Below are positions 1 to 51,004 of a stretch of DNA of 51,004 nt, in pieces. Position numbers and translations under genes: made by a program. Origin of the DNA: Thermoplasmatota archaeon (GTDB lineage Archaea > Thermoplasmatota > Thermoplasmata > Thermoplasmatales > Thermoplasmataceae); NCBI GenBank assembly GCA_023489435.1, contig JAMDCA010000046.1, positions 1 to 51,004 on the forward strand, written 5' to 3'. Position 1 is the stretch's first letter; every line of letters begins with the position of its first letter. The notes beneath the pieces were generated by a model. That model worked only from the letters and a program-made list of their open reading frames with translations, made no database searches and was not told the DNA's origin.

Positions 1-72
1 GCTGCCCAGTACGGTTCCGGCTTGATGAAAAAGCTAAAAATGCTGCCAGTCTGGAACACTTTCCCTCAATAG
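1..72 (+). CDS. 3' end of an upstream CDS cut by the window edge (AAQYGSGLMKKLKMLPVWNTFPQ*)
   Basis: Open frame from base 1 to TAG at 70-72; product not identifiable. Confidence 0.35.
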   Translation, partial: AAQYGSGLMKKLKMLPVWNTFPQ

Positions 73-154
73 TGCAACTATCAATCCATGATTGCTACGG
101 GAATTATTTATAGAATTATCAAATAGCCAAAAAACCTGAAATTGCAGTGATAAC

Positions 155-928
155 ATGGCTTACATCGGTATAATAGGCGGTAGCGGGCTCTACAATCTTC
201 TGGAAAATCCAGAATCGCTGGACATTGAAACACCATTTGGCAAACCATCTGGAGTTATTGAAGTTGGAAAGATCAACAATGTTGAAGTGGCATTTCTGCC
301 GAGGCATGGGAAGAAACACACAATACCTCCGCACAAAGTGAACTACAGGGCCAATATATGGGCTCTTGACAGCATTGGTGTAAAGAGGGTCCTGGCAGTC
401 AATGCTGTTGGCTCCCTGAAAGAAGGTCTTGCGCCCGGAACCATTGTAATACCGGATCAGTTCGTCGACAACACAAGAAGAAGGGAACTTACCTTTTACG
501 ATGGGCCGGAAGTTTATCACATTTCTGCAGCAGACCCGTTCTGCCCTCACATGAATAAGGAACTCCATGAAGTGGCATCTAAGATTACTGAAGACGTCCA
601 TCTTGGAGGCACATATGTTACGGTGGAGGGTCCGAGATTTTCCACAAGGGCCGAGTCAATGATGTTCAGGCAGTATGCAGACATCATCGGCATGACACTG
701 GTTCCAGAGGTCAACCTTGCGGACGAAAAATCCATGTGCTACTCAGTCATCGCAACCGTAACAGATTACGATGTCTGGGCAGACAAGCCCGTGGAAGCTG
801 CAGAAGTTTTCAAGACCATGAAGGAAAATGAGGAAAAGGTAACTGAGCTCATCAGGAATGTTCTTCCCAAAATCAGCAGGGAGAGAGCATGCCACTGCAA
901 AGACAGGCTCAATGACGCAAAAGCATGA
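155..928 (+). CDS. mtnP: S-methyl-5'-thioadenosine phosphorylase family (PNP/MTAP)
   Basis: [13 protein letters not shown] start; [25 protein letters not shown] and [23 protein letters not shown] motifs typical of MTAP. Confidence 0.9.
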
Positions 929-937
929 GGAAATAGA

Positions 938-2167
938 ATGAAAGTCAAATTTTTAGGCGGAGCCGAGGAAGTCGGCAGACTTGCAATAAAGATACACGAA
1001 AGCAACACGAACATAATGGTGGATTACGGTGTAATTCCGGAAAAACCTCCAGAATACCCACTCCCGTATGAGAAAGTTGAGGGGATATTTGTCACACACG
1101 CACATCTTGACCACATTGGAGGCCTTCCAATGTGTTACCAGTCCCACAGGCCGGACCTGTATGCAACCACCCTTACAGCAAGCAGCATGAGGCCTATGCT
1201 GGAGGATTCAATCAAGATCATGGATATTGAGGGATACCCAAAGAGATTCGCAAGGGATGACATCAACACGCTCTACGAAATGGTCCTCACTTCAAGGTAC
1301 GGCGATTCCTCGCAGGTTGGGGAAATGATCGCTACACCATACTCAGCGGGGCATATCCCGGGCTCATCCATGTGGAAATTCGAGAATAACATGGATCTTC
1401 TGGTAACCGGTGATCTATACACTGGAGACACTTACCTGCTCAATGGAGCCAAACCGGTCAAGGCAGAGAATCTCATAATTGAATCCACATATGCGGGCAA
1501 GTTGCACGAGGATAGGCAGCAGGTTGTCAACAGATTCAGGGAAAGGGTAAGAGAAGTGGTTGACAACGGAGGGAAGGTTATCCTTCCTGCATTTGCCATG
1601 GGAAGATCCCAGGAACTCCTGATGATTCTTGCAACCATGGACCTGAAGGTGGCATCTGATGGAATGGGAAACACCATCACAAATATCTACCTGGACACTC
1701 CAGGAGGTTTTCTGAGGTCAAGGTCTGAACTCAAGAGGGCTGTTGGCAAAGCAAGGCAGATCAGGAACAACAGAATGAGGGGTGCGGCACTTGAAGAGAA
1801 CGACGTCATTGTGACCACTTCAGGAATGATGGATGGTGGACCCGTTCTCAGATACGTGCAGGAACTTGCCGACGATCCCAAGAGTGCCATCTTTCTTACT
1901 GGATACCAGGTTGAGGGTACAAACGGAAGAAGCCTCATTGAGACGGGTATCCTGAACATAGCCGGTGCACCGGTAAAGCCAAGCATGCAGCTGGAATTCT
2001 TCGATATGTCCGCCCACGCCGGCCACGATGACCTTGTTTCATTCATAAAGCAGGTGGATCCCCAGAGGGTAATACTCTGCCATGGAGAACAGAGGGAAAA
2101 ACTGATTGAGGCCCTCCCGGACTATGAAGTAATCCTTCCAATGAACGGACAGGAATTCGAGTTTTAA
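938..2167 (+). CDS. Beta-CASP metallo-beta-lactamase ribonuclease (archaeal CPSF/RNase J-like)
   Basis: HAHLDHIGG metal-binding motif, GDLYTGD, ESTYAG, PAFAMGRSQE, SAHAGHDDL beta-CASP motifs. Confidence 0.85.
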   Translation: MKVKFLGGAEEVGRLAIKIHESNTNIMVDYGVIPEKPPEYPLPYEKVEGIFVTHAHLDHIGGLPMCYQSHRPDLYATTLTASSMRPMLEDSIKIMDIEGYPKRFARDDINTLYEMVLTSRYGDSSQVGEMIATPYSAGHIPGSSMWKFENNMDLLVTGDLYTGDTYLLNGAKPVKAENLIIESTYAGKLHEDRQQVVNRFRERVREVVDNGGKVILPAFAMGRSQELLMILATMDLKVASDGMGNTITNIYLDTPGGFLRSRSELKRAVGKARQIRNNRMRGAALEENDVIVTTSGMMDGGPVLRYVQELADDPKSAIFLTGYQVEGTNGRSLIETGILNIAGAPVKPSMQLEFFDMSAHAGHDDLVSFIKQVDPQRVILCHGEQREKLIEALPDYEVILPMNGQEFEF

Positions 2168-2181
2168 AGGGCGTTCCCAAA

Positions 2182-2206
2182 GCCCCTTCAACGGGGCCCT
2201 TTTTTT
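2182..2206 (+). terminator. Hairpin plus T-tract downstream of the beta-CASP gene
   Basis: GCCCC-TTCAAC-GGGGC stem followed by a T7 run. Confidence 0.5.
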
Positions 2207-2297
2207 ACGGGGAATCGCACAATTTTTCTCATTTCGGGTATTGCAACGGAGCCGTGGCGCAAGAAATATACCTATATATAATCATGATACCAGAACC

Positions 2298-3053
2298 ATG
2301 GAAGAGCTACTGTCTGTGAAAAATGTCCATATGGAATATTCCACAGGCAAGAGCAAGCTTATTTCAATTCAGGACGTTTCATTCAACATTCACAAGAATG
2401 AATTTGTTTCGCTCATTGGTCCTTCAGGCTGCGGCAAGTCGACTATACTTAAAATGGTGCTCGGCCTGATCAACCCCACGTCCGGAACCGTGCTTATGGG
2501 TGGAGCACCCATTGGTGAGGACAACAGCAGGGTATCCGTGGTCTTCCAGAATCCGGCTCTCTTCCCGTGGCTTGATGTGCAGAAGAATGTGGAGATCGTC
2601 CTGGAGCCCATTATGCGTGACAGGGAAATGAGGAAAGAGACTGCCCTCAAATACATCAAGATGGTGGGAATTGACGGTTTTGAGGGTGCTTATCCAAGGG
2701 AACTTTCCGGCGGGATGAAGCAGAGGGTATCCATCGCAAGGGCAATATCCACTTCTCCTGAATTGCTGTTGCTTGACGAGCCTTTTGCAGGCCTTGATGT
2801 CTTTTCAGCCCAGGCACTCAGGGAGGAATTGCTGGACCTGTGGCTTCCACCGGACAAACCACCCCATGCAGTGCTTCTTGTCACGCACAACGTTGATGAA
2901 GCAGTTCAACTGAGCGACAAGATCGTTATACTGAGCAGGAGGCCAAGCACGGTCATCGACGAGCATCCTATAACGCTGGAGCGGCCAAGGAATACAAGAA
3001 GCGATGAATTCTACCAGACAGTGGATGAAGTGGTCAGGACCATGTCCCCGTGA
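2298..3053 (+). CDS. ABC transporter ATP-binding protein, nitrate/sulfonate/taurine (SsuB/TauB) type
   Basis: Walker A GPSGCGKST, Q-loop, LSGGMKQR signature, LLLDEPFAGLD Walker B; internal ATG at 2298 (MEELLSVKNV) favoured over ORF start 2241. Confidence 0.85.
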   Translation: MEELLSVKNVHMEYSTGKSKLISIQDVSFNIHKNEFVSLIGPSGCGKSTILKMVLGLINPTSGTVLMGGAPIGEDNSRVSVVFQNPALFPWLDVQKNVEIVLEPIMRDREMRKETALKYIKMVGIDGFEGAYPRELSGGMKQRVSIARAISTSPELLLLDEPFAGLDVFSAQALREELLDLWLPPDKPPHAVLLVTHNVDEAVQLSDKIVILSRRPSTVIDEHPITLERPRNTRSDEFYQTVDEVVRTMSP

Positions 3054-3680
3054 TTACGGTATTGCAACACCAAGTGCAATAATTGCATTGATAAAGTACT
3101 GAATTGCAAATCCTGCAACAAGAAGCCCGAATATCCTGGTCAGAGCCTTCAGGGCCTTTTCCCCCATTATCCTCGTAATCTTGGCTGAATAGATGAAGAA
3201 GACATAGATGATCAGCATAACCATAATAATGGAAGCAAGGGTGAAGATATCGGTGATGTAATTGGTCAGGAAGCTTCCTTTGATCAAAATTATGACTAGG
3301 GATATTGCACCTGGGCCCGCGATAAATGGGGTTGCGAAGGGAACTATTCCCAGATCCGGGTCTGTCTGGCCTCCGCCCATGGACTTTGGTCTGTCGCCCT
3401 CCCTCACCATTTCAATACCCATTATCAGGAGAATGATGCCTCCTGCTATCTCCAGCGCTTCAATGGATATTCCGAAGAAATAGAGAATGTACGAGCCAAG
3501 GATTGCGAAGAAAACCAGAATAAGGCCGCCATAAAGGGCTGCGTCCACAGTAATGGTTCTTCTCGTTTTTACGTCTGTGCTTGCAGTCATGGCAATGAAG
3601 AGCACCAGGCAACCAAATGGGTCTATGACTACAAAGAGCCTGATGAATATATTCAGAAACTCCAGCAGCTGGGTTGCCAT
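3054..3680 (-). CDS. MarC family integral membrane protein
   Basis: MATQLLEFLNIFIRLFVVIDPFG N-terminus, multiple TM segments, NxxGxxPF-like ATPFIAGPGAIS motif; start re-set from 3743. Confidence 0.8.
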   Translation of the reverse strand: MATQLLEFLNIFIRLFVVIDPFGCLVLFIAMTASTDVKTRRTITVDAALYGGLILVFFAILGSYILYFFGISIEALEIAGGIILLIMGIEMVREGDRPKSMGGGQTDPDLGIVPFATPFIAGPGAISLVIILIKGSFLTNYITDIFTLASIIMVMLIIYVFFIYSAKITRIMGEKALKALTRIFGLLVAGFAIQYFINAIIALGVAIP

Positions 3681-3819
3681 GCTATCCCGTACCTGATAAA
3701 CTTGATGAATATGAGACCTCGCATTTCTGGACTGAAACACCATTGCGTCTTACAGTTTAGGCTCCCTGATGAATAGTTCTGATCATTGCAGCCAAGTCTT
3801 TTATAAAAAGCAATAATCT

Positions 3820-4521
3820 GTGATCATGCAGTTTAACCTGGCGATTATGCTCGCGGCGCTGGGTATCACTTTACTTGAAATGTCGGAGGCTTCCGCCATG
3901 GGAATGGCACTCTATGCAGATTCCAAGCGGATTGGAGCCTACGGTGCAGTGGTCCTCGGCGTAATCACAGTCTTTATTCCAACAGTTGTGGCAGGGAACT
4001 ATATGGCCCTTCTTCCCATAACCTATGTAAGGATTGCATCAGCCACTCTCCTCCTCTACTTTGGAATCAGGCTTATCAGGAGTGCCCGGAGATCTTTCAG
4101 GTTTCAGAGGCTTGGCCCGCCCACAGGTGGAGGAAAACATGAGGAACCGGAAAGGGGAATTATGGCCACTGGTTATTCTGTGGGGGTGGTGGAAGCTTTT
4201 GAGGCTGCAATTGTTCTTATTGCCCTTTTTCCCCAGAATTTCGATTCCACGGGCATCGGCGTAATAGTTGGATGCCTGACCGTAGTCGTGGCAGCCTATG
4301 TTCTAAGGTCACAGATAAGGAAGGTAAAACAGGCTACTGTGAAGACGGCGGTATCCTCCCTTCTGCTGAGTTTTGCTCTGTTCTGGTACATTGAGACTGT
4401 GTATGCCATCAATGACGTATTCCTCATTCCAATGTTTGCTGCATTCTATCTTCTGGTGTATAGCATAGCCACAAGAGGCATTCCCCGCAAAGAGAAAGAG
4501 CCACTCGCAGCCGATTCCTAG
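3820..4521 (+). CDS. Polytopic membrane protein, COG4280/GDT1-like
   Basis: LGITLLEMSEASAM and GVVEAFEAAIVLIAL repeated E-containing TM motifs. Confidence 0.55.
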   Translation: MIMQFNLAIMLAALGITLLEMSEASAMGMALYADSKRIGAYGAVVLGVITVFIPTVVAGNYMALLPITYVRIASATLLLYFGIRLIRSARRSFRFQRLGPPTGGGKHEEPERGIMATGYSVGVVEAFEAAIVLIALFPQNFDSTGIGVIVGCLTVVVAAYVLRSQIRKVKQATVKTAVSSLLLSFALFWYIETVYAINDVFLIPMFAAFYLLVYSIATRGIPRKEKEPLAADS

Positions 4522-5157
4522 AATAAGCCCGAATGAAGAATATGGGAAACCTGGACCCGGCTATTCGTGCCACAGGTAGACTCTTTTTACGAAGATTATC
4601 CTCCCTTAACGGAAAAATTTCCCAGATTCCTCATAATTTCGGCAATTTTATTATGAATTGGTCAAGGGAACAGAAAGGGGAGCAAGTGCAGTAATAACTG
4701 GCATTATTATGGTCAAGTGGTTTCCTAACCATTTATGTTTACCGTTCCAATAACCGGTTCTCAAAAAAAGCATATGACGGAAATAACAGGAAGAGTAGTT
4801 TCAGAGCGTTGAGCCTGTTGCAAGCATAGTATCAGGGAAATCAGAGGGGTGGTATAACGTTCTTTCTCTTTATTATAGTCAGGGAGGCACGTCTTTTCCC
4901 GGGTCTATTGGAGTTGTATCCTCAAATTCCTTGCCAAGAACAAGGAAGTAATATTCCAGTATCTTGAGGGTGATAATATGGTGAAGAGACAGACTTTGTC
5001 TTATAATAACGCTCATTCATTGGGCCCGAAATACTCAAGACGTGATTCTGGATAGTTGACGGCCTTACAAGGAAAACATACTATTCTGCAGATTATCCAT
5101 GGGAGTTGATAGTTTCATTAGTGCGTAAAATTTTATACTGTCAAGTTTTAAATTCTC

Positions 5158-5943
5158 ATGGCAAAATTTTGTTCAAAATGTGGATCCGAGAACGATGACT
5201 TCGCACAGAATTGCATTTCATGCGGGTCACCATTGACGATTTCTGCTGGCAGTATCACTGACACGCCAGAAAAGAAACGCCTATACCTGCAGGGAATGAT
5301 GAACTTAAGATACTATACGATAGTCGGGTTTCTGGCGCTCGTTGCGGGAATCGTGCTGGATTTCGTGTTTATGAGGACCTTGTCCTATGGGTACCTCGTG
5401 GGCCCAATAGGCGCTGCTTTCGGTGGTGTATCTCTCAATACCGCAAATGTTGGGGCATTGCTTGTCTATTCCGAGATAACGCTCATAGTTTCTGCAGTAT
5501 TGACACTTATTGGCGTTTTTATGCTTTACAGGGGCTTTGCTGTCCTAAAATCACTGGATCCGGAATTCTCTGTCGGGAGAACCGGCGCTATGCTTGAGTT
5601 CATTGGCATGATCCTCGTAGTTCTTGGCGTAATAGCCCTTCTTGCAATAGTACTGCCTTCTATAAACCTGGGAAGCGCTACCACTACTGCAAGTATTTCC
5701 CCATCAGAAATTGGGACCTTGCTAGGAATTGCGCTTCTAGTCCTGATAGCTGCTATTCTTCTCCTTATCGGAGTGATAATGGTCCTTATTGGGCTGTTCA
5801 GAGTCGGCAGCCACTTCAACAACTCACTGGTTAAGATTGGTGCAATTCTTACCATCTTCCTTGGAATAGTTGGAACAATATTGCTCTTCATAGGATTTAC
5901 AGATATAATCAAACAGCTGAAAAAGAGCATAGGAGAGTCATAA
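5158..5943 (+). CDS. Zinc-ribbon membrane protein (DUF973-like)
   Basis: N-terminal CSKCGSENDDFAQNCISCGSP zinc ribbon followed by several TM helices. Confidence 0.6.
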   Translation: MAKFCSKCGSENDDFAQNCISCGSPLTISAGSITDTPEKKRLYLQGMMNLRYYTIVGFLALVAGIVLDFVFMRTLSYGYLVGPIGAAFGGVSLNTANVGALLVYSEITLIVSAVLTLIGVFMLYRGFAVLKSLDPEFSVGRTGAMLEFIGMILVVLGVIALLAIVLPSINLGSATTTASISPSEIGTLLGIALLVLIAAILLLIGVIMVLIGLFRVGSHFNNSLVKIGAILTIFLGIVGTILLFIGFTDIIKQLKKSIGES

Positions 5944-6335
5944 GAAGGTAACTCATTTGCAGGAAACCTGAAAGCTGTTTATAAATTGCCCATGCAAATA
6001 TGGGCGCATTTACTTTTAACTTTTATGAACGGCAAATTCCTTCCTATACAGTAGATCAAGATTCAACTCCTGACATTTTGTTTTTCAGTCGAAGTTTGAT
6101 TATGAACTGATTCTCCTCCTGTGGATTTAGAGTCTGATTTTCTTGGGGAGAACTTTTGACTGATCTGTCTAATGAATATTTCATAGCAATGAGTTATCAA
6201 AATTGTGCAAGAAATGAATGAAAAAAATTAACTGTGAGTGGGCAAAATTTTATCCTTCTCGATCAGAAGAAAATTGCATTAGTTACAAAACTGAGTTGAA
6301 CTAAATTTCAAGGATCAAAAATACCACCTGGGGGA

Positions 6336-7214
6336 ATGAAAGTTTGCTCTTGTCGTGGTGATTGTGATGGCCATCTAAGAAACATACACTTAAACTTTAT
6401 AAGAGAAAAAGAAGTTATTTATTTGAGACACTTGGTAAGCGACTACAACCAAGCACCTAAATCGCCTGCAGTACGATTGAAAGTGCTGAAAGCCGGTGAG
6501 ATTGGCCTCTCCTCTTTGGGGTTATCGTTCCTTTTCTGGGCAATCTTAATGGGAGGGTCCATGGGTGATGGGGGCCCAATGGTGTTCATGAACTCAATAT
6601 TGGGGCAGATTCTCGGCATATCCAGTATTGGTCTGACCATTGCTGGAATCATTCTAATGTGCTCTATGGTGACCAAGATTTCTCTTTCAAGAAAGTATCT
6701 ACTCCTAACATCCTCATTCGCATTTGCAATCTTAAATCTTGCAGGATATTACTTTTTCATTCATTCAATATATCGCGGAATAGCCATCCCCTATACGTCA
6801 AATTCGTTTGTAATTTATCTCTCCATTGGCTCCTTGATTTATTTCACGTTTATACTCATTTTCAATTTTTTCATCTGGTCTTTTCTTAACAAATCCGGAA
6901 GGAGACTTCTTTTAGTTGCGTCCCTATTTGCAGTATTGTACCTTGTAGCAATAACAATTTCTACAGTGTATGCTCCAAATAATTTCTCAACATCATCAAT
7001 TCCAACAATGCCTGGGGACAACATGCTTTCAAGTGTTTCTTTTCTTAGCCCCTTTTTTGGCATTCCAGGGTTTCTGTTGAATGATGGCGTGCTGAATCAA
7101 CCTAGTTGGGCAATGGTCTTTCCAATGGTTTCAAACCTGATTTATGCTTTGCTCTTTTTTTCCAGCAGCAAGGCCTTGAAGTTAAGTGTCACAAAGATTG
7201 GTGTATTCGATTGA
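6336..7214 (+). CDS. Hypothetical multi-TM membrane protein; true start uncertain and probably internal
   Basis: Long open frame with repeated hydrophobic segments; no recognised family. Confidence 0.5.
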   Translation: MKVCSCRGDCDGHLRNIHLNFIREKEVIYLRHLVSDYNQAPKSPAVRLKVLKAGEIGLSSLGLSFLFWAILMGGSMGDGGPMVFMNSILGQILGISSIGLTIAGIILMCSMVTKISLSRKYLLLTSSFAFAILNLAGYYFFIHSIYRGIAIPYTSNSFVIYLSIGSLIYFTFILIFNFFIWSFLNKSGRRLLLVASLFAVLYLVAITISTVYAPNNFSTSSIPTMPGDNMLSSVSFLSPFFGIPGFLLNDGVLNQPSWAMVFPMVSNLIYALLFFSSSKALKLSVTKIGVFD

Positions 7215-7289
7215 GATGGGCCATTTTTCTGTAGGCTGGTACAGATCAGATTTACAGAAGCGTGGTAATGTGCACAGAGAGGCTTTTAA

Positions 7290-7646
7290 CCCATAAAGGT
7301 CACAAACAAAAGTTACGGAAACGTCATCAATGCACCAAAATACCGTTCAAAACTGGATTGGATCACTGTAGCCCCGGATGGATCTTTCGCATCATATTGG
7401 CTTATCCGGTACGACAAGAATTCAAAAATAGATCTTATAGAATCCGTAGGCGCATAATCTGGATTCATAAGGCTGGGTTTTTCCAAAGTAGTGTGCATCG
7501 CGGTTTTAATGGAGCTGAAGAAAATGGGTGGAAAAGGAGCAATTGTGAATTCACGAGGAGGCCAAGGGGATCCTGTACCAGCTTTACTTTACCACTCTAT
7601 GGGCTTCAATGAAATATCCCGCACTAGATCATTCGTTAAAGAATAA
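7290..7646 (+). pseudogene. Degraded GNAT-family acetyltransferase with in-frame TAA
   Basis: One frame reads PIKVTNKSYGNVINAPKYRSKLDWITVAPDGSFASYWLIRYDKNSKIDLIESVGA*SGFIRLGFSKVVCIAVLMELKKMGGKGAIVNSRGGQGDPVPALLYHSMGFNEISRTRSFVKE*; GNAT-like V.P..R..G and LYHSMGF blocks; lacks a normal N-terminus. Confidence 0.55.
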
Positions 7647-7766
7647 TAAAAGAGAAGTACCTGAAGAAATTTTTCTGTAGACGGGACAGCAGTTTTATGG
7701 TCACTCCAACCACGGATTAAATTTACTTAAGGAAGTATATTTATTGGCATATCTGTTAAACTATTT

Positions 7767-7930
7767 ATGAAAATAGAAGGGAATGGTACTCCTGCAGGTA
7801 CGCCGATTTGGATCGGATACAAAAGCTATAGCGTTTCAACAACAGACGGTAGAAGTATTTATGTGGTTATCCAAAAAAAGTGTTAGCGAAAACTCCTGAA
7901 AGGATTAAGGTCACAATTGAGTGGGATTAG
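7767..7930 (+). CDS. Small ORF split at A_AAA_AAG; 39 aa in frame 0 or 54 aa after a -1 shift
   Basis: Frame 0: MKIEGNGTPAGTPIWIGYKSYSVSTTDGRSIYVVIQKKC*; -1 continuation: VLAKTPERIKVTIEWD*. Confidence 0.4.
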
Positions 7931-8275
7931 GAACTGTATTTATTTAAATCAGCTTGTTCGCCTTAAAAACGATTAGAATCTAATAGTGTAAAGTCCTTAT
8001 TCGAGCAGACTGTTGTATTATTGTCCCTCTAACAAATTAAGTAATGATTACATTAGGATCTTCGCCGATAATGCTTGAATTTACTTCCTCTGCATGGATG
8101 CGAAGCCTTTATTACTGAAATCGGGTGAACTCTTTATTTGATTTCATCTAAGATTAATAACCCATCTTCTTTCAAACTGTCCTTATCATGAGTTCTTCTG
8201 TGATACAGACTGAAAGAAGCATCAAATCCTCACACGCATCAAAAAGTTAACAATGAAAAAGCTCTCAGAAGTAAA

Positions 8276-8321
8276 CAGGTATGGGGGATTCGAACCCCCG
8301 ACCTATGGATTAAGAGCCCAT
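8276..8321 (-). tRNA. Partial tRNA-Lys(CUU)-like 3' half (anticodon arm, variable loop and T-arm only)
   Basis: Minus strand ATGGG-CTCTTAA-TCCAT anticodon arm, AGGTC, GGGGG-TTCGAAT-CCCCC T-arm, ATACC; no D-arm or matching 5' acceptor upstream. Confidence 0.6.
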
Positions 8322-8330
8322 TTAATCCAT
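8305..8330. repeat. Perfect 9-bp inverted repeat with 8-nt loop at the tRNA fragment edge
   Basis: ATGGATTAA GAGCCCAT TTAATCCAT. Confidence 0.85.
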
Positions 8331-8379
8331 TTTAATCAAATCCGGCAATCTTTTTAGCCTTTTGGGAAATGCGGATAAA

Positions 8380-9549
8380 ATGAAGGTAATGATTCTAGGT
8401 ATTGATGGCTATGTTGGCTGGCCCCTTGCTTTAAGAGAGTTAATGAAAGGAAATGAGGTTGTTGGGGTCGACAATTTCTTTACCCGCAAGAGGGTGAAGG
8501 AAGTCAGTTCACAATCCATAACACCAATACCATCCTTCCAGCAGAGACTGACCAGACTCAAGGAAAAGACTGGCAAAACAATCTCTTTCCACCAGGGAGA
8601 TGTTGCAGATCCGAAGTTTTTCCTTGAAGTCATGAAGAAAGAAAAGCCGGATGCAATAGTGCACTTGGCTGAACAGAGATCTGCACCTTATTCCATGAGG
8701 GGTCTAAGGCAGGCTACCGATACAATGGTGAAAAACATTGTCAGCACTCTTAACCTCATTTATGCAGTAAAGGACTATGTTCCAAATGCCCACATACTGA
8801 AGCTGGGCACCATGGGTGAATATGGGACTCCGAACATTGACATTCCGGAAGGCTTCTTTGACATTGAGTACAACGGCAGGAGAGATTATTTGCCATTCCC
8901 AAAACAGGCTGGTTCCTGGTACCACTGGACAAAGGTCCATGATTCAAACAACCTCATGTTTGCAAACAGACTCTGGAAACTCAAGATCACCGATGTCATG
9001 CAGGGAGTTGTTTACGGGACAAGGACAAAGGAAATAGATCAGATAGGCCTGTTTTCCAGATTTGACATTGATGAAGTCTGGGGCACAGCGCTGAACAGGT
9101 TCTGTGCACAGGCCACGGTAGGTCTTCCCATCACACCCTACGGAAAGGGCGGGCAAACAAGAGGGTTCCTTTCCCTTGAAGACAGCATTACCTGCCTGGA
9201 CCTGGCATTGAACAACCCCCCCAAGGAAGGAGAGTACAGGGTGTTTAACCAGTTCGATGAGCATTATTCGGTCAATGAACTGGCCAGCAAGGTCCAGAGC
9301 ATATATTCAGAAACATATGGAAAAACACCCGAGATCAGAAGTGTCCCCAATCCTAGGCTTGAAGCTGAGGAACACTACTATAACCCTGCACATGAGAAAC
9401 TCGCAAAGCTTGGCTACACGAAATCCAAGGAACTTGGGGATGAATTAAGGATAATTCTAAGGGACCTCAGATCATACAGAAGAAGGATTGAGAAGCTCAA
9501 GGAAGTCATAAATCCAAGAACTATCTGGAAAGACAGCCCTACGAAATAA
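8380..9549 (+). CDS. UDP-sulfoquinovose synthase-like SDR (SQD1/Agl3 family)
   Basis: ILGIDGYVGWPLALRE Rossmann start, LGTMGEYGTPNIDIPEG, YHWTKVHD (YxxxK-type), QGVVYGTRT typical of SQD1/Agl3; alternative TTG start at 8362. Confidence 0.85.
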   Translation: MKVMILGIDGYVGWPLALRELMKGNEVVGVDNFFTRKRVKEVSSQSITPIPSFQQRLTRLKEKTGKTISFHQGDVADPKFFLEVMKKEKPDAIVHLAEQRSAPYSMRGLRQATDTMVKNIVSTLNLIYAVKDYVPNAHILKLGTMGEYGTPNIDIPEGFFDIEYNGRRDYLPFPKQAGSWYHWTKVHDSNNLMFANRLWKLKITDVMQGVVYGTRTKEIDQIGLFSRFDIDEVWGTALNRFCAQATVGLPITPYGKGGQTRGFLSLEDSITCLDLALNNPPKEGEYRVFNQFDEHYSVNELASKVQSIYSETYGKTPEIRSVPNPRLEAEEHYYNPAHEKLAKLGYTKSKELGDELRIILRDLRSYRRRIEKLKEVINPRTIWKDSPTK

Positions 9550-10282
9550 CTTTCCCTCTGGCTTTTTCAAGGGTGGCCATTAACACATCAACATAGCTCT
9601 CGGCCTTTCCCACACTTACCCATTCTTTTCTTTCTAGAAAATCGGAAAATATGGGGCTTCCTTTCCTGATAACCCTGTCGATTGCAGGTGTAAGCTCTAT
9701 ATTTTCACTGGATGCATCTATCTCGTTGAAAATTTTTGGAGTCAACCGGTACAGGGCACATAGTGCAAAATTTGACGGCGGGTTGCGGGGTTTTTCAATC
9801 ACTCCCTTAACGACAAGATTTCCATTTTCTCGGGCAATGACGGGGCATCCGTAATTCTCAGGATTTGGAACTGGAATCAGTGCAAGGTATATACTGGACT
9901 CACTGGCAGAAACCATGTTTTTGATGGTATAATCATTGAGGACAAGTCCATCTCCTGCGTTAAGAATAAAATCATCAGTCCCGATGAAATCCTTAGCCAT
10001 GAGGACCGCATGGCCATAGCCACGCCTCTCTTCCTGTAAAAGAAGAGTGGCCTCAGGAAAATTTGATTCAAGATATTCCATGGTCCACCTGTCATCGGGT
10101 TCAACCACAACAGCGACCTCTTCGATGTCATTTCTTGCAAATTCAGTGAGAATGACATCAATTATGGGCCTCAAGGCGATCTTCCCATTCCTGATATCAT
10201 AAACGGGAAGCATTTCTTTCCTCAATTTCCCGTCCAGGCCGGATCTTGTCCCAAGTCCGGCTGCCGTAATCAGCCCCTTCAT
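9539..10282 (-). CDS. Sugar-1-phosphate nucleotidyltransferase (UTP-glucose-1-phosphate uridylyltransferase-like)
   Basis: MKGLITAAGLGTRSGLDGKLRKEMLPV nucleotidyltransferase signature. Confidence 0.75.
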   Translation of the reverse strand: MKGLITAAGLGTRSGLDGKLRKEMLPVYDIRNGKIALRPIIDVILTEFARNDIEEVAVVVEPDDRWTMEYLESNFPEATLLLQEERRGYGHAVLMAKDFIGTDDFILNAGDGLVLNDYTIKNMVSASESSIYLALIPVPNPENYGCPVIARENGNLVVKGVIEKPRNPPSNFALCALYRLTPKIFNEIDASSENIELTPAIDRVIRKGSPIFSDFLERKEWVSVGKAESYVDVLMATLEKARGKVIS

Positions 10283-10373
10283 TGGGAAGAAATTAACAGG
10301 GCTATTATCTTATTTTCCATCTGTTGCGGCATCATTCGAAATGAATATATGTTGTATATACGATAACCTAGAA

Positions 10374-11645
10374 ATGGCTTCATCTCCGGCTAAGTTTTTC
10401 ACCCTCGACAGCTTCGATCTTGAGGGGAAGAGGGTATATTTGAGGGTGGACATCAACTCGCCAATCAACCCAATTTCAGGCGAAGTGATGGGGCTCAACA
10501 GATTCATGTCCCACCTGGATACAATCAGGGAACTTCACAATTCAAAACTGGTCGTGGTCGCACACCAGAGCAGGCCTGGTAAAGACGACTTTACTTCACT
10601 TAAGACCCACGCGGAACAGATGGAGAAGATCACCGGAAGGCCAATTGAGTTCATCGATTCCCTGTTTGGGTCAGAGGCCAGGAACAAAATCAGGCATATG
10701 GAAGACGGGGAGATCATTATGCTGGAAAACACCAGGTTCTACACTGAGGAAACAGATATTGATCCCATGGACGCAGAACTTGCAGAATCCACTCATTTCG
10801 TCAAGAACCTCAGTGAGCTGTTCGATTACTATGTTATTGATGCATTCCCGACCATTCACCGGGCTCAGACTTCACTTGTTGGGTTCAGGAGAATAAGGCC
10901 AAATATAGCAGGCAGGCTGATCGAAAAGGAAGTCTCCATGATAGACCGGTTCACTTTTGGCAACGACCATCCCAAACTTGCAATTCTCGCTGGCGCAAAG
11001 ATAGATGACAGCATTAACGTTTCAAGCAGTTTTCTCAAGAATGGCACAGTAGACAGCATAATTGCCGGTGGTGTGGTAGCGAATGCTTTCCTATGGGCAA
11101 AGGGCATGGATATCGGGAAGAAGAACAGAGAGTTCATCATGAAGAATAACAAGAATCATTCAGAGATCATTGATCAATGCAGGAAAATACTTGAGAAATA
11201 TCCTGGCAAACTAATGCTCCCGGATGACTTCGTCCTTAACCCCACAGGAAGGAACCTTTCAGTTAAAGACAAAGTCCCCGATGACCAGATTCTTGCGGAT
11301 ATTGGACTCAACAGCATTTCTCGTTTTGTGGAGGAAATCAGAAAATCCAGGGCAATATTCCTTAATGGCCCTATGGGAATGTACGAGATCGAAGAGTTTT
11401 CTGTGGGTACGAGGGAAATCCTGGAGGCAGTGGCCGATTCTCATGGACTGACCATTGCGGGAGGAGGGCACACATTGAATGCGCTGGAAAAGCTGAGGCT
11501 TATGGACAGGATATCACATGCTTCAACTGGCGGGGGTGCACTGATAAGCTATTTATCAGGTGAACGAATGCCTGTATTGCAGGCTCTTGAAGAGAGTCTG
11601 AACATCTTTCAGGGACAAGGTTATGGAAAACGAAGGAAAAATTAA
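10374..11645 (+). CDS. pgk: Phosphoglycerate kinase
   Basis: KRVYLRVDINSPI, AHQSRPG, LAGAKIDDS, GGGHT motifs; start at ATG 10374 (MASSPAKFF). Confidence 0.88.
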   Translation: MASSPAKFFTLDSFDLEGKRVYLRVDINSPINPISGEVMGLNRFMSHLDTIRELHNSKLVVVAHQSRPGKDDFTSLKTHAEQMEKITGRPIEFIDSLFGSEARNKIRHMEDGEIIMLENTRFYTEETDIDPMDAELAESTHFVKNLSELFDYYVIDAFPTIHRAQTSLVGFRRIRPNIAGRLIEKEVSMIDRFTFGNDHPKLAILAGAKIDDSINVSSSFLKNGTVDSIIAGGVVANAFLWAKGMDIGKKNREFIMKNNKNHSEIIDQCRKILEKYPGKLMLPDDFVLNPTGRNLSVKDKVPDDQILADIGLNSISRFVEEIRKSRAIFLNGPMGMYEIEEFSVGTREILEAVADSHGLTIAGGGHTLNALEKLRLMDRISHASTGGGALISYLSGERMPVLQALEESLNIFQGQGYGKRRKN

Positions 11646-12042
11646 CATTTCAGAGGAACTGGATTACCTCAGGTCGCTTATGGAGTCTCTCGATTCCCAA
11701 CTTTCAGTCCTGGTAAGGGGTATGGACGAGATCCGGAAGGCCTATGCAGTTTTGAAGGAGGAAGGCCTATCAGCATCAAAGGATGTTCGGGTTTCCATAG
11801 GAGCAGGAATTTTTGCAAAGGCAAAAATAGACTCCAAAGACAAGCTTTTTGTCCCCATCGGCTCAGATCTCTATGTGGAAGAGGATTCAATTAAGAGCAT
11901 TTCCAGGCTTGACCAGAACCTGAAGGAACTTGATTCCTCCATCCAGAATGTTCAGGGCAGGAGATCAGAGATTTCCAGCAGGTACAATTCACTTGTTTCA
12001 GTGCTCCAGCAGGCACAGGAACAGCAGAGGTCCAAGAATTGA
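11623..12042 (+). CDS. pfdA: Prefoldin alpha subunit
   Basis: Coiled-coil/beta-hairpin/coiled-coil layout; VSIGAGIFAKAKI...VPIGSDLYVEE. Confidence 0.8.
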   Translation: MENEGKINISEELDYLRSLMESLDSQLSVLVRGMDEIRKAYAVLKEEGLSASKDVRVSIGAGIFAKAKIDSKDKLFVPIGSDLYVEEDSIKSISRLDQNLKELDSSIQNVQGRRSEISSRYNSLVSVLQQAQEQQRSKN

Positions 12043-12043
12043 T

Positions 12044-12916
12044 ATGTTTGAATCATTCAAGAAGAAATTTGGAAAAGCGCTGAATGAAGAAAACGGCCAG
12101 GAAATAAGGAAAACAGAAATAGAGGACAACATCAGGACAATTCTTCTTGAATCTGATGTTTCATTTGATACAGCTGAACGGATTATAAGCGATCTGGAGA
12201 ATTTTATTTCAGGCAGCAAGAAGCGCGTAAGCATGAAAGATGTCAAACACGAACTGAGGGCATCTGTGGAAGAGATTCTCAGAGAAAATGAGACGGACAT
12301 TGATTTGCTCAACCCTCCAAAAAAACCGATGGTCATACTTTTCCTCGGCATAAACGGCACGGGAAAGACAACCACAGTGGCAAAAATCGCCAATTACCTT
12401 AAAGCCAACAACAAGAGGGTTGTTGTTGCAGCTTCCGATACATTCAGGGCAGGCGCAATTGAGCAACTCAGCATACTCTGCGACAGAATTGGAGTTCACC
12501 TCATAAGACACGAAACTGGGAGCGATCCAGCTTCAGTTGCATTTGACGCAATTGAGCACGCTCACGCAAGAAATCTTGACTTTGTCCTCATTGATTCTGC
12601 GGGAAGAATGCAGACAAACAAGAATCTCCTTGAAGAAATGAAGAAAATGAAAAGAGTCGCAAAACCCGACCTGACAGTTCTCGTGCTGGATGCTATGATT
12701 GGCCAGGATGCTGTCCACCAGGCTGAGACTTTTAACAAAGAGACACCATTCGACGCAGTCATTCTAACGAAACTTGATACTGATGCACGTGGAGGGGCAA
12801 TTCTCACCATATCTGACCAGTTGAAGAAGCCCATTCTGTTTGTGGGTGTTGGCCAGGAGATGGGAGATCTCCAGCCGTTTGACTACAACTGGTACCTCGA
12901 AAGAATAATGCCGTGA
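12044..12916 (+). CDS. ftsY: Signal recognition particle receptor FtsY
   Basis: MFESFKKKFG start; GINGTGKTTTVAKIA, DTFRAGAIEQL, DSAGRMQTN, TKLDTDARGGA motifs. Confidence 0.93.
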   Translation: MFESFKKKFGKALNEENGQEIRKTEIEDNIRTILLESDVSFDTAERIISDLENFISGSKKRVSMKDVKHELRASVEEILRENETDIDLLNPPKKPMVILFLGINGTGKTTTVAKIANYLKANNKRVVVAASDTFRAGAIEQLSILCDRIGVHLIRHETGSDPASVAFDAIEHAHARNLDFVLIDSAGRMQTNKNLLEEMKKMKRVAKPDLTVLVLDAMIGQDAVHQAETFNKETPFDAVILTKLDTDARGGAILTISDQLKKPILFVGVGQEMGDLQPFDYNWYLERIMP

Positions 12917-12967
12917 CCTCTTTTCATATTTCCAGGAAAGAGCACTCCCGCTTGGGATAGTTAAATC

Positions 12968-13396
12968 CTACTCCGATGTGTCCGCCTCAAATTCATTCCC
13001 ATGGTTGTCAGAGACTTCCATGGAATCAACAAATTCTGGGCCATGGGGCTTCTTCTTGAAATCATCGGAAATCGGCTTTACATCGAATTTTATTCCAACC
13101 CTCGTGTTGAGCATTTCCAGGTTCTTGCGCACCATCTGGGAGAATTTCTGGGTCTCCGCCATGAAGCGGGTTTCCCACTGTATCTGCTGCTCCAATATTT
13201 TGAGCTGGTTTTCTTGCTTTACCAGGTCTGGCATGGTCTGGCTCTCCTGTTTTGGGGAAACTGTTTCATGAGAGGCTTCGGGTTGTTCCTCTATGGTTTT
13301 CTTAACTGGTAGCTTCGCCTGGAAAAAGAAAGTGTAAAGCCACAGGAGAATGGCTATTATGGACAAAGCAAGGGCCACAATAGATACTGGATTCAT
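12968..13396 (-). CDS. Hypothetical protein: N-terminal TM anchor plus charged/coiled-coil domain
   Basis: MNPVSIVALALSIIAILLWLYTFFF TM segment followed by a polar helical region. Confidence 0.6.
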   Translation of the reverse strand: MNPVSIVALALSIIAILLWLYTFFFQAKLPVKKTIEEQPEASHETVSPKQESQTMPDLVKQENQLKILEQQIQWETRFMAETQKFSQMVRKNLEMLNTRVGIKFDVKPISDDFKKKPHGPEFVDSMEVSDNHGNEFEADTSE

Positions 13397-47529: not shown

Positions 47530-47602
47530 GCCACTGTAGCTCAGCAGGTAGAGCAGCTGATTCGTAATCAGCAGGTCGGGGGTTCAAATCCCTCCAGTGG
47601 CT
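47530..47602 (+). tRNA. tRNA-Thr(CGU)
   Basis: GCCACTG...CAGTGGC acceptor stem, D-loop AGCAGGTAGA, anticodon arm CTGAT-TCGTA-ATCAG region with CGT, TTCAAAT T-loop. Confidence 0.93.
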
Positions 47603-47804
47603 TTATTGCTGAAAATATTGTATTTCCAAAATATTATGCACGGTTATTTTTGATGTGTTGCAAAATCTATATTCTCGTGCTTTTATTGTGGAATGTTTAA
47701 ATTAATTGTTGAATTTAACTCTTGTAAAAACAAAAGTCTCAATTCAATAATGCCTGTTACTAATTTTGTGGTATCAAAGAATTGAAGGTTTTTATCAAAC
47801 CTCT

Positions 47805-48161
47805 TTATTCTTGAGGAGGTCTATGAAGTTGTCGATCCATCATCTGATAGGATTGCAACTCCCCATAAACTGCTTTCATTGATTCAGCTGCGCCAGAAAA
47901 TTCATAGCTTTTGTTGCCCATCTCAATGGTTATAAATGCCTTTTTTCTTGCGAGACCCTTTTCTTGGTAGCCGATGTTCTTAACCTGTTCTATTGGTACG
48001 CCTACAAAGTTGTTTTTCTTAAAAAGCAGTCCCTTTGTTTTGTGCCACAGAATTCTTCTATCCGTGATTAGCAAGGTATAAACGTCCCCTTGAAAACTTA
48101 CTGAAGTTGGAGAAGTGTACCTTACGTTTTCCCCCGGTGCTAAAAACTGTTCTACGCCCAT
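47805..48161 (-). CDS. Small PH/GRAM-like domain protein
   Basis: LAPGENVRYTSPTSVSFQGDVYTLLITDRRILWHKTKGLLFKKNNFVGVPIEQVKNIGYQEKGLARKKAFITIEMGNKSYEFSGAAESMKAVYGELQ: pattern of bacterial/archaeal PH-like domains (G.....TDRRI.......I....I........I........F.F......). Confidence 0.65.
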   Translation of the reverse strand: MGVEQFLAPGENVRYTSPTSVSFQGDVYTLLITDRRILWHKTKGLLFKKNNFVGVPIEQVKNIGYQEKGLARKKAFITIEMGNKSYEFSGAAESMKAVYGELQSYQMMDRQLHRPPQE

Positions 48162-48257
48162 TTACTATCATGACTATCATTCATATAAGCATATAAATTC
48201 ATGCAAGATATAATGTATAATAAATAAATTTATTCAATAAATCATTAAGACGGAATA

Positions 48258-49370
48258 TTATCGAATAAACTGATTGTACTTTTGTATAATTGTCTTGTTG
48301 GAACTTGGTTTTATTCTAGAGATAGAATCCAAAATATCTTCCTTAGTGATCTTTCTCTTTATTCCAGAGCCAACTGCTTCGTAAAACACTTTTTCTGCTG
48401 ATTGTCTGATAATAAAATCCACATCTGATACTGAAAATCCATCAGTTAGGTCTGCAATTTCTCTTGCACTGATATCTTTAGAAAAAGCAGTTGATTTCAA
48501 TAGTCTTTCTAACAAAGCTTCTCTATCTCCTCTGTTTGGTAAAGGCACATATATTTTGAGGTCAAATCTACCTGGTCTTAACATTGCAGGATCAATATCC
48601 CATGGTAAATTCGTAGCTGCAACCAAGTAGGTTTTGCTTTGTTCTTCACTCATCAACTTGTTGATTTCTATTAGCAGTTGAGTAACACCTCTTTTTACAA
48701 CGCTATGGTCTGTATTCTCCCTTTTGGGAATTAATGTTTCAACTTCATCAAAAAATAATATATTCGGAGCGGTCTCTCTTGCAAGTTTAAAAATTTCTGA
48801 TATATTTTTCTCGTATTTGCCAAAATATTCATTGTATAGAAATGCTGGATTCAATTCAAGAAAGCTTATGCCTGCTTCCCCAGCTAAAGATTCGGCAAGA
48901 TAGGTTTTTCCATTTCCAGGGGGACCATAAAACAGAATGCCCCCATTTGTCTTTAAGCCAAATTCCTCAGATAGCTCTCTGAATTGCAATGGGTATATCA
49001 CATTTGTCTGCAGGGATTTTTTAATTTCGTCCATGCCCATTACGTCTTTAAAATTTCTAGTGGGATGTTTGACGTATCTGACTCCCAATTCATTAAACCG
49101 TTTTACATGGTCTATTTCGCTGCCATCTTCCGCAGTAGTCGATTTCAAATATTGGATTCTTGTCTGAATTAGGTCTGTAAGAGTGCTTATCTTATCTTCA
49201 AAAATATTTTTGTGAGTTTTCTTAAATTCTTGGAGCTCACCCAGAACATTCTCTAAACAAGGTAGGTTATGGAAGCCAGAGGATCCTTCATTCTCTGAAG
49301 CACATTTTAAAAATGACGAATATATTGATTGTATCTCAGTTTCCATTGATTCTTTTGGTTTTGGGGGCAT
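48258..49370 (-). CDS. Single-domain AAA+ ATPase, Vps4/CdvC/Cdc48-like, with helical (MIT-like?) N-terminus
   Basis: Walker A GPPGNGKT, Walker B ILFFDEVE, ATNLPWDIDPAMLRPGRFDLKIYVPLP, preceded by ~95 aa helical region ending ISTLTDLIQTRIQYLKS. Confidence 0.85.
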   Translation of the reverse strand: MPPKPKESMETEIQSIYSSFLKCASENEGSSGFHNLPCLENVLGELQEFKKTHKNIFEDKISTLTDLIQTRIQYLKSTTAEDGSEIDHVKRFNELGVRYVKHPTRNFKDVMGMDEIKKSLQTNVIYPLQFRELSEEFGLKTNGGILFYGPPGNGKTYLAESLAGEAGISFLELNPAFLYNEYFGKYEKNISEIFKLARETAPNILFFDEVETLIPKRENTDHSVVKRGVTQLLIEINKLMSEEQSKTYLVAATNLPWDIDPAMLRPGRFDLKIYVPLPNRGDREALLERLLKSTAFSKDISAREIADLTDGFSVSDVDFIIRQSAEKVFYEAVGSGIKRKITKEDILDSISRIKPSSNKTIIQKYNQFIR

Positions 49371-49375
49371 CCTGA

Positions 49376-49795
49376 TTAGTCCTCATTGTCATAAACTTGG
49401 GCCTGTGGGTATACTTTTCTTGCAAACAAGCCACTTTTTACGGTCTCTATCTCTACAGTTAGGGCAAATTCATTAGGAATTATGCCTACTTTGCTCAATT
49501 GTTTAGTAGTGCGTTTAGTTAGATAGAGAAAATCTTTGTGTTCATAAGCTGGATGGAAGATCATGAATATGGGTAACCCTCCAACACTCTCGTACATGGT
49601 ATTGTAAGTTTCAAATTCCCCACTTTTGCCAGACGGTTCAGCGGAAATAATTTTCCCGAAAACTCCATTTAATGATTTTAATGCATAAGGGTTTTTGAGC
49701 TTATTCGGATGTACGTACAAGAACAGATTCGATGCATTTTTATCGCCAATAACGCCATCTGTGAAGTGTATTGTTGATTTCAGTGTCAAACTCAT
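49376..49795 (-). CDS. Hypothetical beta-rich protein of unknown family in the AAA cassette
   Basis: ORF with good Shine-Dalgarno (AAAGGTGAAGCATG); stop codon 5 nt before the AAA start. Confidence 0.65.
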   Translation of the reverse strand: MSLTLKSTIHFTDGVIGDKNASNLFLYVHPNKLKNPYALKSLNGVFGKIISAEPSGKSGEFETYNTMYESVGGLPIFMIFHPAYEHKDFLYLTKRTTKQLSKVGIIPNEFALTVEIETVKSGLFARKVYPQAQVYDNED

Positions 49796-49812
49796 GCTTC
49801 ACCTTTTTACTG

Positions 49813-49823
49813 TTTTTATATAG
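49813..49823 (-). promoter_or_regulatory. TATA-box-like element upstream of the beta-rich gene
   Basis: Minus strand CTATATAAAAA about 20 nt upstream of the ATG at 49795. Confidence 0.4.
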
Positions 49824-49858
49824 TTAATTTGGAACGTAGATTTGATAGGTTTTAATTA

Positions 49859-50473
49859 TTATTCCTTCTGTCCGGATTTTTCTTCATTAGTCTCCAAGCT
49901 TTTCTTCGCTTCACTTATCATTTCATCGATCTTTGATTCGGTATCATTAGTCATTTTTTCTTTATTTGACACGAATCTCCCTATTATATCTTCGACGTTC
50001 TTATCTGAGATTCCTTTAGAATCAACAGATCGAGTAATCATTTCAAGTTGTCCAGATAACCGGTCCTCTATTTGCTCAGAAACTGACACAATGCTCTCTA
50101 TATTCTGTTGAACTTGAGACATCTGGGATTCGGATAGTTGACTTTCTGCTAAATCTTTGGCACTCTGTTTCAAAGATGCCCAAATATCTTTGGTTGTCTT
50201 GGCGAATTGTAAACTGAGATCAACATTTTCCAAAAAAAGTTTATAATCTTTCAGACCCTTGATGGCCCCTTCCAAGTTAGCTATATTGGAAGCAAATAAT
50301 TTAGCTTTCGGAGAATTCTCACTGTCTATCGCAACTTTTAAGTTTTGCACATTTTTCTCGTAATTCCGTTCATATTGACGTATGGCTCTGTCAATATCCC
50401 CTTTCCACTTTGAAATTTTGGACCTTTTCTCAAAATTTTTTTCCTCTTCAGATTTTCTAAGTTTTATAGCCAT
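49859..50473 (-). CDS. Charged helical protein, ESCRT-III/Snf7 (CdvB)-like candidate
   Basis: Basic N-terminal helix, helical hairpin KAKLFASNIANLEGAIKGLKDYKLFLENVDLSLQFAKTTKDIWASLKQS reminiscent of Snf7 (A+.YA..+......L......++.V...+Q.A.T.K), acidic C-terminal tail. Confidence 0.55.
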   Translation of the reverse strand: MAIKLRKSEEEKNFEKRSKISKWKGDIDRAIRQYERNYEKNVQNLKVAIDSENSPKAKLFASNIANLEGAIKGLKDYKLFLENVDLSLQFAKTTKDIWASLKQSAKDLAESQLSESQMSQVQQNIESIVSVSEQIEDRLSGQLEMITRSVDSKGISDKNVEDIIGRFVSNKEKMTNDTESKIDEMISEAKKSLETNEEKSGQKE

Positions 50474-50503
50474 TGATCCTCTATCTAAAATAAGGTACAG
50501 GAA

Positions 50504-50515
50504 TTATTTAAATTT
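50504..50515 (-). promoter_or_regulatory. TATA-box-like element upstream of the ESCRT-III-like gene
   Basis: Minus strand AAATTTAAATAA, followed by SD-like GAGGATCA before the ATG at 50473. Confidence 0.45.
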
Positions 50516-51004
50516 GCATATTGCAAACTATCTCTTTGTTTTCCAATTTAAACAACGATCCAGTGAAAACAACGCCAGGGATAATGATATGGATCATAAA
50601 GGGGATATTGGCAAAGTCGCACCAGTGCCTGAAAAAGTAACATCTTATTATTCTTCATAAAAATCAATGTAAGTTAAAGTGAAAAACACTGTAGACATAA
50701 GGAAGGTGAGTCTATTTCTCAAGTGTTAATTGGAGGGAAAATGGATGTTCTGGGTAGCATTCAGCATTGAATTTCACTATTATCGACGAACCACAATTTA
50801 ACAATTAACATCGGGGAACAGATGATTTCAAATAGCACTAAAGAAGATAAAATTCGTTCACCAAGCGTCGGTGTGAACTATAGATATTGGCTGTTCGGAG
50901 AGGAGAGAAGGCATTACCGAAACTGCATCCAATAATAGGGGCATTCTGAAGAACCCATTGAATTGAGTTCATGAACTACTTACCGTCCTCGATCTCGTTA
51001 AGAA

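Follow-up and report, generated by a model that had tools for sequence, protein, structure and literature searches.

The closest described relatives of the locus analysed here are the archaeal ESCRT systems of the 'Thermoplasmata clade', defined by Makarova et al. (2024) as Vps4, ESCRT-III and the beta-barrel protein arCOG07400 (PMC10936438). According to the available part of that survey FtsZ and SepF coexist with ESCRT in Thermoplasma and Cuniculiplasma, and PH domains occur in an ESCRT context in eukaryotic Vps36 and in the Asgard Znr_PH_CC_SB protein (PMC10936438). The same part of the survey mentions neither a PH component for Thermoplasmata nor a tRNA or island location, and a PH neighbour could be listed in its supplementary tables (PMC10936438). 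The better known crenarchaeal Cdv system (CdvA, CdvB and CdvC) has in common with the present locus the pairing of an ESCRT-III protein with an MIT-bearing Vps4.

The window, meaning the whole stretch of 51,004 nucleotides that was analysed, is contig 17 of a genome of 1.35 Mb in 52 contigs that is 82% complete. It carries four genes for an ESCRT-III subunit, a beta protein, a Vps4-type AAA ATPase and a PH-like protein (Table 1), with coordinates, minus-strand orientation and order that agree exactly with those in the sequence-only reading, and the four open reading frames are judged to be real genes because each has homologues in other genomes. That reading had presented the cassette as undescribed, which does not hold as three of the four genes make up the minimal Thermoplasmata ESCRT already defined in the part of the survey available (PMC10936438), with the same three core genes lying next to one another and Vps4 belonging to the same clade. 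Compared with that minimal system, the cassette adds an adjacent PH gene and sits in an island at a tRNA-Thr gene. As far as the available part of the survey goes, what is new is the PH gene beside the ESCRT core in three genera, which appears undescribed there, and the setting of 35% GC that starts at the 3′ end of the tRNA-Thr gene. Compared with the crenarchaeal Cdv system the cassette has a beta protein, with no CdvA among its four genes and no CdvA or PRC barrel identified, while the ESCRT-III protein is without the extra C-terminal domain needed for a winged helix of the CdvB type. Taken together the locus is best read as an accessory, horizontally acquired ESCRT of the Thermoplasmata type with a PH membrane adaptor, to which a probability of roughly 0.6 is given.

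Table 1. Coordinates of the cassette, its surroundings and ESCRT-related loci on other contigs.
Feature	Contig or locus	Coordinates	Strand	Basis
ESCRT-III (Snf7-family) subunit, 204 aa	window	49859..50473	-	Pfam Snf7
C-terminal MIM-like motif SKIDEMISEAKKSL of ESCRT-III	window	49895..49936	-	alignment with relatives
Beta-barrel-type protein, 139 aa, very likely arCOG07400	window	49376..49795	-	homologues adjoin vps4; AlphaFold2 model
Vps4-type AAA ATPase, 370 aa	window	48258..49370	-	Pfam AAA; tree
Three-helix MIT-like N-terminal domain of Vps4, residues 6-83	window	49122..49355	-	AlphaFold2; PDB fold match
AAA ATPase domain of Vps4, residues 145-277	window	48540..48938	-	Pfam PF00004
PH-like protein (bPH_3), 118 aa, proposed membrane adaptor	window	47805..48161	-	Pfam bPH_3
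tRNA-Thr (CGT), intact, apparent integration site bounding island	window	47530..47602	+	ARAGORN; synteny
AT-rich genomic island, cut by contig end	window	47603..51004	.	GC
GTPase-linked ESCRT locus	L071 (G245)	466-7526
GTPase-linked ESCRT locus, Vps4 too	L072 (G409)	2-8164
GTPase-linked ESCRT locus, Vps4 too	L073 (G410)	6838-13008		DO-GTPase1 9e-13, GAP1-N2 2e-7
GTPase-linked ESCRT locus	L083 (G392)	164-5586		DO-GTPase2 1e-10
GTPase-linked ESCRT locus, Vps4 too	L080 (G180)	3555-8737		GAP1-N2 only, 0.01
ESCRT-III/Vps4-like genes binned as Chloroflexi	JACQUA010000074.1 (L119)	192-845 and 4371-5507		Vps4_C over cut-off; archaeal Snf7 profile 2e-12
ESCRT-III/Vps4-like genes binned as Clostridia	JAAWDP010000001.1 (L147)	4997-5623 and 5738-7825		archaeal Snf7 profile 6e-8
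Vps4-like AAA gene binned as Phycisphaerae	JALHOX010000317.1 (L110)	3740-4873		Vps4_C over cut-off

The helical protein is a predicted ESCRT-III subunit, as had been proposed from its Snf7-like appearance, matching Pfam Snf7 with an E-value of 5.9e-10 (39.5 bits against a curated cut-off of 27.3), a profile also matched by 16 of its 21 relatives. In the alignment most of these relatives end in (E/D)xx(L/V/I)(D/N)xL(I/L)xxL, with which the degenerate SKIDEMISEAKKSL of the window protein can still be aligned. This C-terminal motif looks like an MIT-interacting motif, such that the protein may bind MIT domains.

The ATPase matches Pfam AAA (1.2e-34) with a single AAA domain in which Walker A, Walker B and the arginine region are intact, the match to Vps4_C (PF09336) lying below the cut-off (E 0.0075, 16.7 bits against 21.3). 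In a PMSF tree of AAA proteins that left out named CdvC and eukaryotic Vps4, it groups with the ESCRT-linked AAA proteins of its relatives, the Thermoplasmata Vps4 clade, set apart by a branch with 96/94 support from D1 and D2 of archaeal Cdc48, with the protein of G391 as its sister (support 100/100). The N-terminal 90 residues are predicted to fold as an MIT domain, modelled by AlphaFold2 as a three-helix bundle (pLDDT 80) for which the best PDB match by Foldseek was the MIT domain of an archaeal Vps4, 2w2u (probability 0.97, TM ≤0.69, E about 0.4), followed by 2v6y and eukaryotic MIT structures. The weak E-values of these matches are expected because only 90 residues are compared. Pfam MIT was matched by 14 of 21 Vps4 relatives and had no match in the Vps4 sequence of the window itself. 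The earlier proposal of an MIT-bearing ATPase of the Vps4 type is thus supported by the predicted fold and by the clade, with no grouping among the Cdc48 or PAN proteins.

No Pfam family is matched by the beta protein, which also lacks a significant relative in PDB by fold or by sequence, with weak likenesses limited to V-ATPase and helicase barrels. The AlphaFold2 model (pLDDT 84, pTM 0.79) consists mostly of strands and is barrel-like, and homologues adjoin vps4 in several genera, such that the protein is very likely arCOG07400 as that family is described in the part of the survey available (PMC10936438). The role proposed for it as a CdvA-like recruiter is unsupported, the PRC-barrel being absent among its 50 best fold matches.

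The PH fold claimed for the fourth protein was borne out by a match to bPH_3 (8.8e-5, 23.3 bits) barely above the cut-off of 23.0, with a better score for the homologue in G391 (1.2e-5, 26.1 bits), while a profile search of PDB with the protein found nothing. Among the PH relatives there were sub-threshold matches to bPH_1, GRAM and Vps36_ESCRT-II, the last in the G419 homologue (0.0036, under the cut-off), with no match to Vps36_ESCRT-II in the PH protein of the window. The comparison once drawn with the GLUE domain therefore stands as far as the PH fold is concerned and falters on Vps36 itself, for which matches are sub-threshold and confined to relatives. In common with Vps36 GLUE and with Asgard Znr_PH_CC_SB, as these appear in the available part of the survey, the cassette ties a PH-fold protein to ESCRT-III and Vps4 (PMC10936438). 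In contrast to Vps36 GLUE the cassette protein is a stand-alone PH of 118 residues in which neither a winged helix nor a steadiness box nor a link to ubiquitin was seen, and in contrast to bacterial bPH_3 proteins (PF14470), the profile of which it matches just above cut-off, it is archaeal and adjoins ESCRT genes.

The first alternative to be weighed is that the locus is the known three-gene minimal Thermoplasmata ESCRT with the PH gene as an unrelated passenger of the island. The triad is found without PH in most relatives, the commonest arrangement in the family (77 genomes) being beta-vps4 with snf7 adjoining or a few kb away and PH absent, and the PH gene is set apart from vps4 by a gap of 96 nt and by a TATA-like stretch of its own. 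In a family-wide search the PH gene was found in six of the 77 genomes, of which only three show adjacency to vps4 and three have PH elsewhere (G183, away from the ESCRT genes; G419, with PH and ESCRT on separate contigs and a PH protein 55% identical to that of the window; and G413, with no ESCRT detected). Against the passenger reading, in three genera PH immediately follows vps4 and has the same orientation, with an order identical to that of the window (snf7-beta-vps4-PH) in G391 (genus g5) and with beta-vps4-PH followed by a coiled-coil/zinc-ribbon gene in G230 (genus g13), where snf7 is close by and faces them. Co-occurrence of the four genes in another genome, as had been predicted, is therefore found in G391. 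Five of the six PH genomes have ESCRT, giving PH in 5/30 ESCRT-bearing genomes against 1/47 others in the family (Fisher p 0.03, with no phylogenetic correction and with absences affected by MAG incompleteness). The PH proteins moreover form two subtypes with about 36% identity between them, and both include members encoded immediately after vps4, indicating that the association of PH with ESCRT either dates far back or was formed repeatedly. With some 1600 genes per genome, the probability that the two genes became neighbours by chance in two separate lineages is estimated at about 1e-5 to 1e-6. We take the link, as judged from gene neighbourhoods, to be real but optional, and an unrelated passenger to be unlikely.

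In two genera a gene for a coiled-coil and zinc-ribbon protein follows directly after PH (genomes G230 and G413; loci L074 6409-6918 and L222 3306-3797), with 21% identity between the two proteins (E 3e-7), paralleling the Asgard Znr_PH_CC_SB protein and making this protein a candidate PH partner. Tentatively, PH may be a genuine fourth component that would serve as a free-standing, minimal counterpart of the GLUE/PH membrane adaptor of ESCRT-II and travel with ESCRT-III, Vps4 and the beta-barrel on a mobile island, with the coiled-coil/zinc-ribbon partner in one lineage as in Asgard Znr-PH-CC. The vps4 gene of G419 (L075 5485-6510) is apparently split into two frames, for which a sequencing error is likely as the core gene tested in that genome also has in-frame stops.

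The gaps within the cassette are 63 nt between snf7 and beta, 5 nt between beta and vps4 and the 96 nt already mentioned before ph, and TATA-like AT-rich stretches were read by eye upstream of snf7, beta and ph. The four genes are probably not a single operon, only beta-vps4 being tightly spaced, and the PH gene is likely to have its own promoter.

The AT-rich island described past the tRNA-Thr gene is confirmed, the 3.4 kb from the tRNA gene to the contig end having a GC content of 35.3% against 45.8% elsewhere in the window, a value reached by none of 885 windows of the same size, and the GC3 of the four cassette genes being 0.29-0.40 against 0.46-0.57 in neighbouring genes. DNA synteny with the congeners G407, G408 and G245 (73-77% identity) starts at 45.4 kb in the window and breaks off close to the final base of tRNA-Thr (to within about 55 bases in the case of G245), and a core gene of the window is 90-95% identical to its copies in G407 and G245. 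In two congeners the 3′ 45-46 bp of tRNA-Thr(CGT) are repeated 1.2-2 kb onward (G408, L212, C74; G245, L213, C40), with pairs resembling toxin-antitoxins of the ribbon-helix-helix/PIN type, by domains read by eye, near the repeats; in G245 the pair is enclosed by the repeat, and in G408 it lies between the first two copies. The synteny break and these repeats of the tRNA 3′ end suggest that tRNA-Thr is an integration hotspot for small cargo, with the cassette very probably carried as cargo. No integrase or direct repeat was found in the 3.4 kb up to the contig end, the far end of the island being unseen because the contig stops at 51004; the last 525 bases of the window have no match in five congeners, and the right flank in G407 has no match in the genome of the window, such that the far junction was not found. 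No beta protein was detected in G245, although the phmmer search used misses distant members, that of G230 having been found only by local survey.

An island-borne function in defence or for a mobile element, such as repairing membranes or releasing vesicles under viral attack, or letting viruses out of the cell, draws on the VapBC-like cargo at the tRNA-3′-end site in congeners, on the pair of an OLD-like AAA and a DUF4276-like protein that adjoins the cassette in G391 and on the DO-GTPase/GAP1 conflict-system genes that adjoin other Thermoplasmata ESCRT-III genes. Such a function is improbable, as PADLOC gave no defence family apart from generic AAA matches (IetA/TRIP13), on which a known family was rejected, and viral contigs, phages and plasmids gave no relative of the cassette proteins searched, on which a virus or plasmid origin was likewise rejected. 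The pair in G391 (L076 3774-5492) comprises an OLD/HEC-01-like AAA_21 ATPase and its DUF4276-like partner beside the four-gene cassette, and pairs of this kind are typical of defence islands.

More doubtful again is a role for the cassette as the machine that divides the cell, an idea raised for Ferroplasma and Acidiplasma, which have no FtsZ. Division by ESCRT is proposed for FtsZ-less Thermoplasmata in the available part of the survey (PMC10936438), and the triad is carried by the FtsZ-less genera g3 and g12. By inference from the same source, g3, g12 and g2 are Ferroplasma, Acidiplasma and Picrophilus (PMC10936438), and in these three a divisome role for ESCRT is more plausible. Assignment of the genomes to Thermoplasmata is based on their gene families and on the agreement of their pattern of FtsZ presence and absence with that survey. 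The genome of the window encodes FtsZ (two full copies and one divergent) together with SepF, which makes it unlikely that the cassette is the sole divisome and ESCRT probably accessory. The island location also argues against a division machine, as does the finding that no Snf7 or PH was detected in the close congeners G407 and G408, the core enzyme of G407 being 95% identical. Least credible is a Cdc48/PAN-type unfoldase with no relation to ESCRT, since the VCP/Cdc48 proteins that are the best phmmer matches of the AAA protein in PDB have scores inflated by their two AAA domains, and the tree position outside Cdc48 D1 and D2, the single AAA domain with its MIT-like N-terminus and the adjoining snf7 gene speak against it; it was rejected on the tree and the MIT fold.

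Within the favoured reading of an accessory ESCRT with a PH adaptor, we infer a mechanism, and with it every interaction among the cassette proteins, in which ESCRT-III subunits would polymerise on the cytoplasmic membrane and the PH protein, perhaps together with the beta protein, would anchor or nucleate the filament at a lipid or at a site on the membrane. The MIM-like C-terminal helix of ESCRT-III would recruit Vps4 via its MIT domain, and Vps4 would thread and disassemble the filament, leading to constriction or scission. As FtsZ and SepF are present and close congeners are without the cassette, it probably serves in the budding of vesicles, in membrane repair or as an aid to abscission, and not in the essential step of division. 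The membrane-remodelling role first suggested from the sequence is plausible, and the Snf7, MIT-Vps4 and PH identities are supported. The interpretation built on the sequence had overlooked the integration hotspot at the tRNA gene, the presence of FtsZ and SepF in the genome and the uneven distribution of PH.

A different, second type of ESCRT locus was observed in congeners and other relatives, with ESCRT-III beside genes for DO-GTPase1/2 and/or GAP1-N2/GAP1-M (Table 1), often also holding TPR- or HEAT-like proteins. ESCRT, Vps4 and Snf7 are unmentioned in the paper on GTPase conflict systems (PMC7159879), as is a link between ESCRT and DO-GTPase/GAP1 in the available part of the ESCRT survey (PMC10936438). 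An ESCRT system under the control of GTPases may be a greater novelty than the four-gene cassette. Vps4-like AAA proteins with MIT-like N-termini, as read by eye, were also seen on contigs binned as bacterial, and in the tree these group beside the Thermoplasmata Vps4 clade. The genes of L119 and L147 that match an archaeal Snf7 profile did not match Pfam Snf7. Either the contigs have been misbinned or they bear ESCRT-III/Vps4-like loci of bacteria, in which such loci are not found according to the part of the survey available (PMC10936438).

ESCRT systems outside the Asgard archaea offer a view of what the ancestral machinery could do. If the reading proposed here is true, a PH adaptor tied to Vps4 and ESCRT-III outside Asgard, within a small mobile cassette found alongside FtsZ, would represent a compact four-protein system for siting filaments on archaeal membranes, and ESCRT would be able to spread as an accessory and not solely as inherited division machinery.
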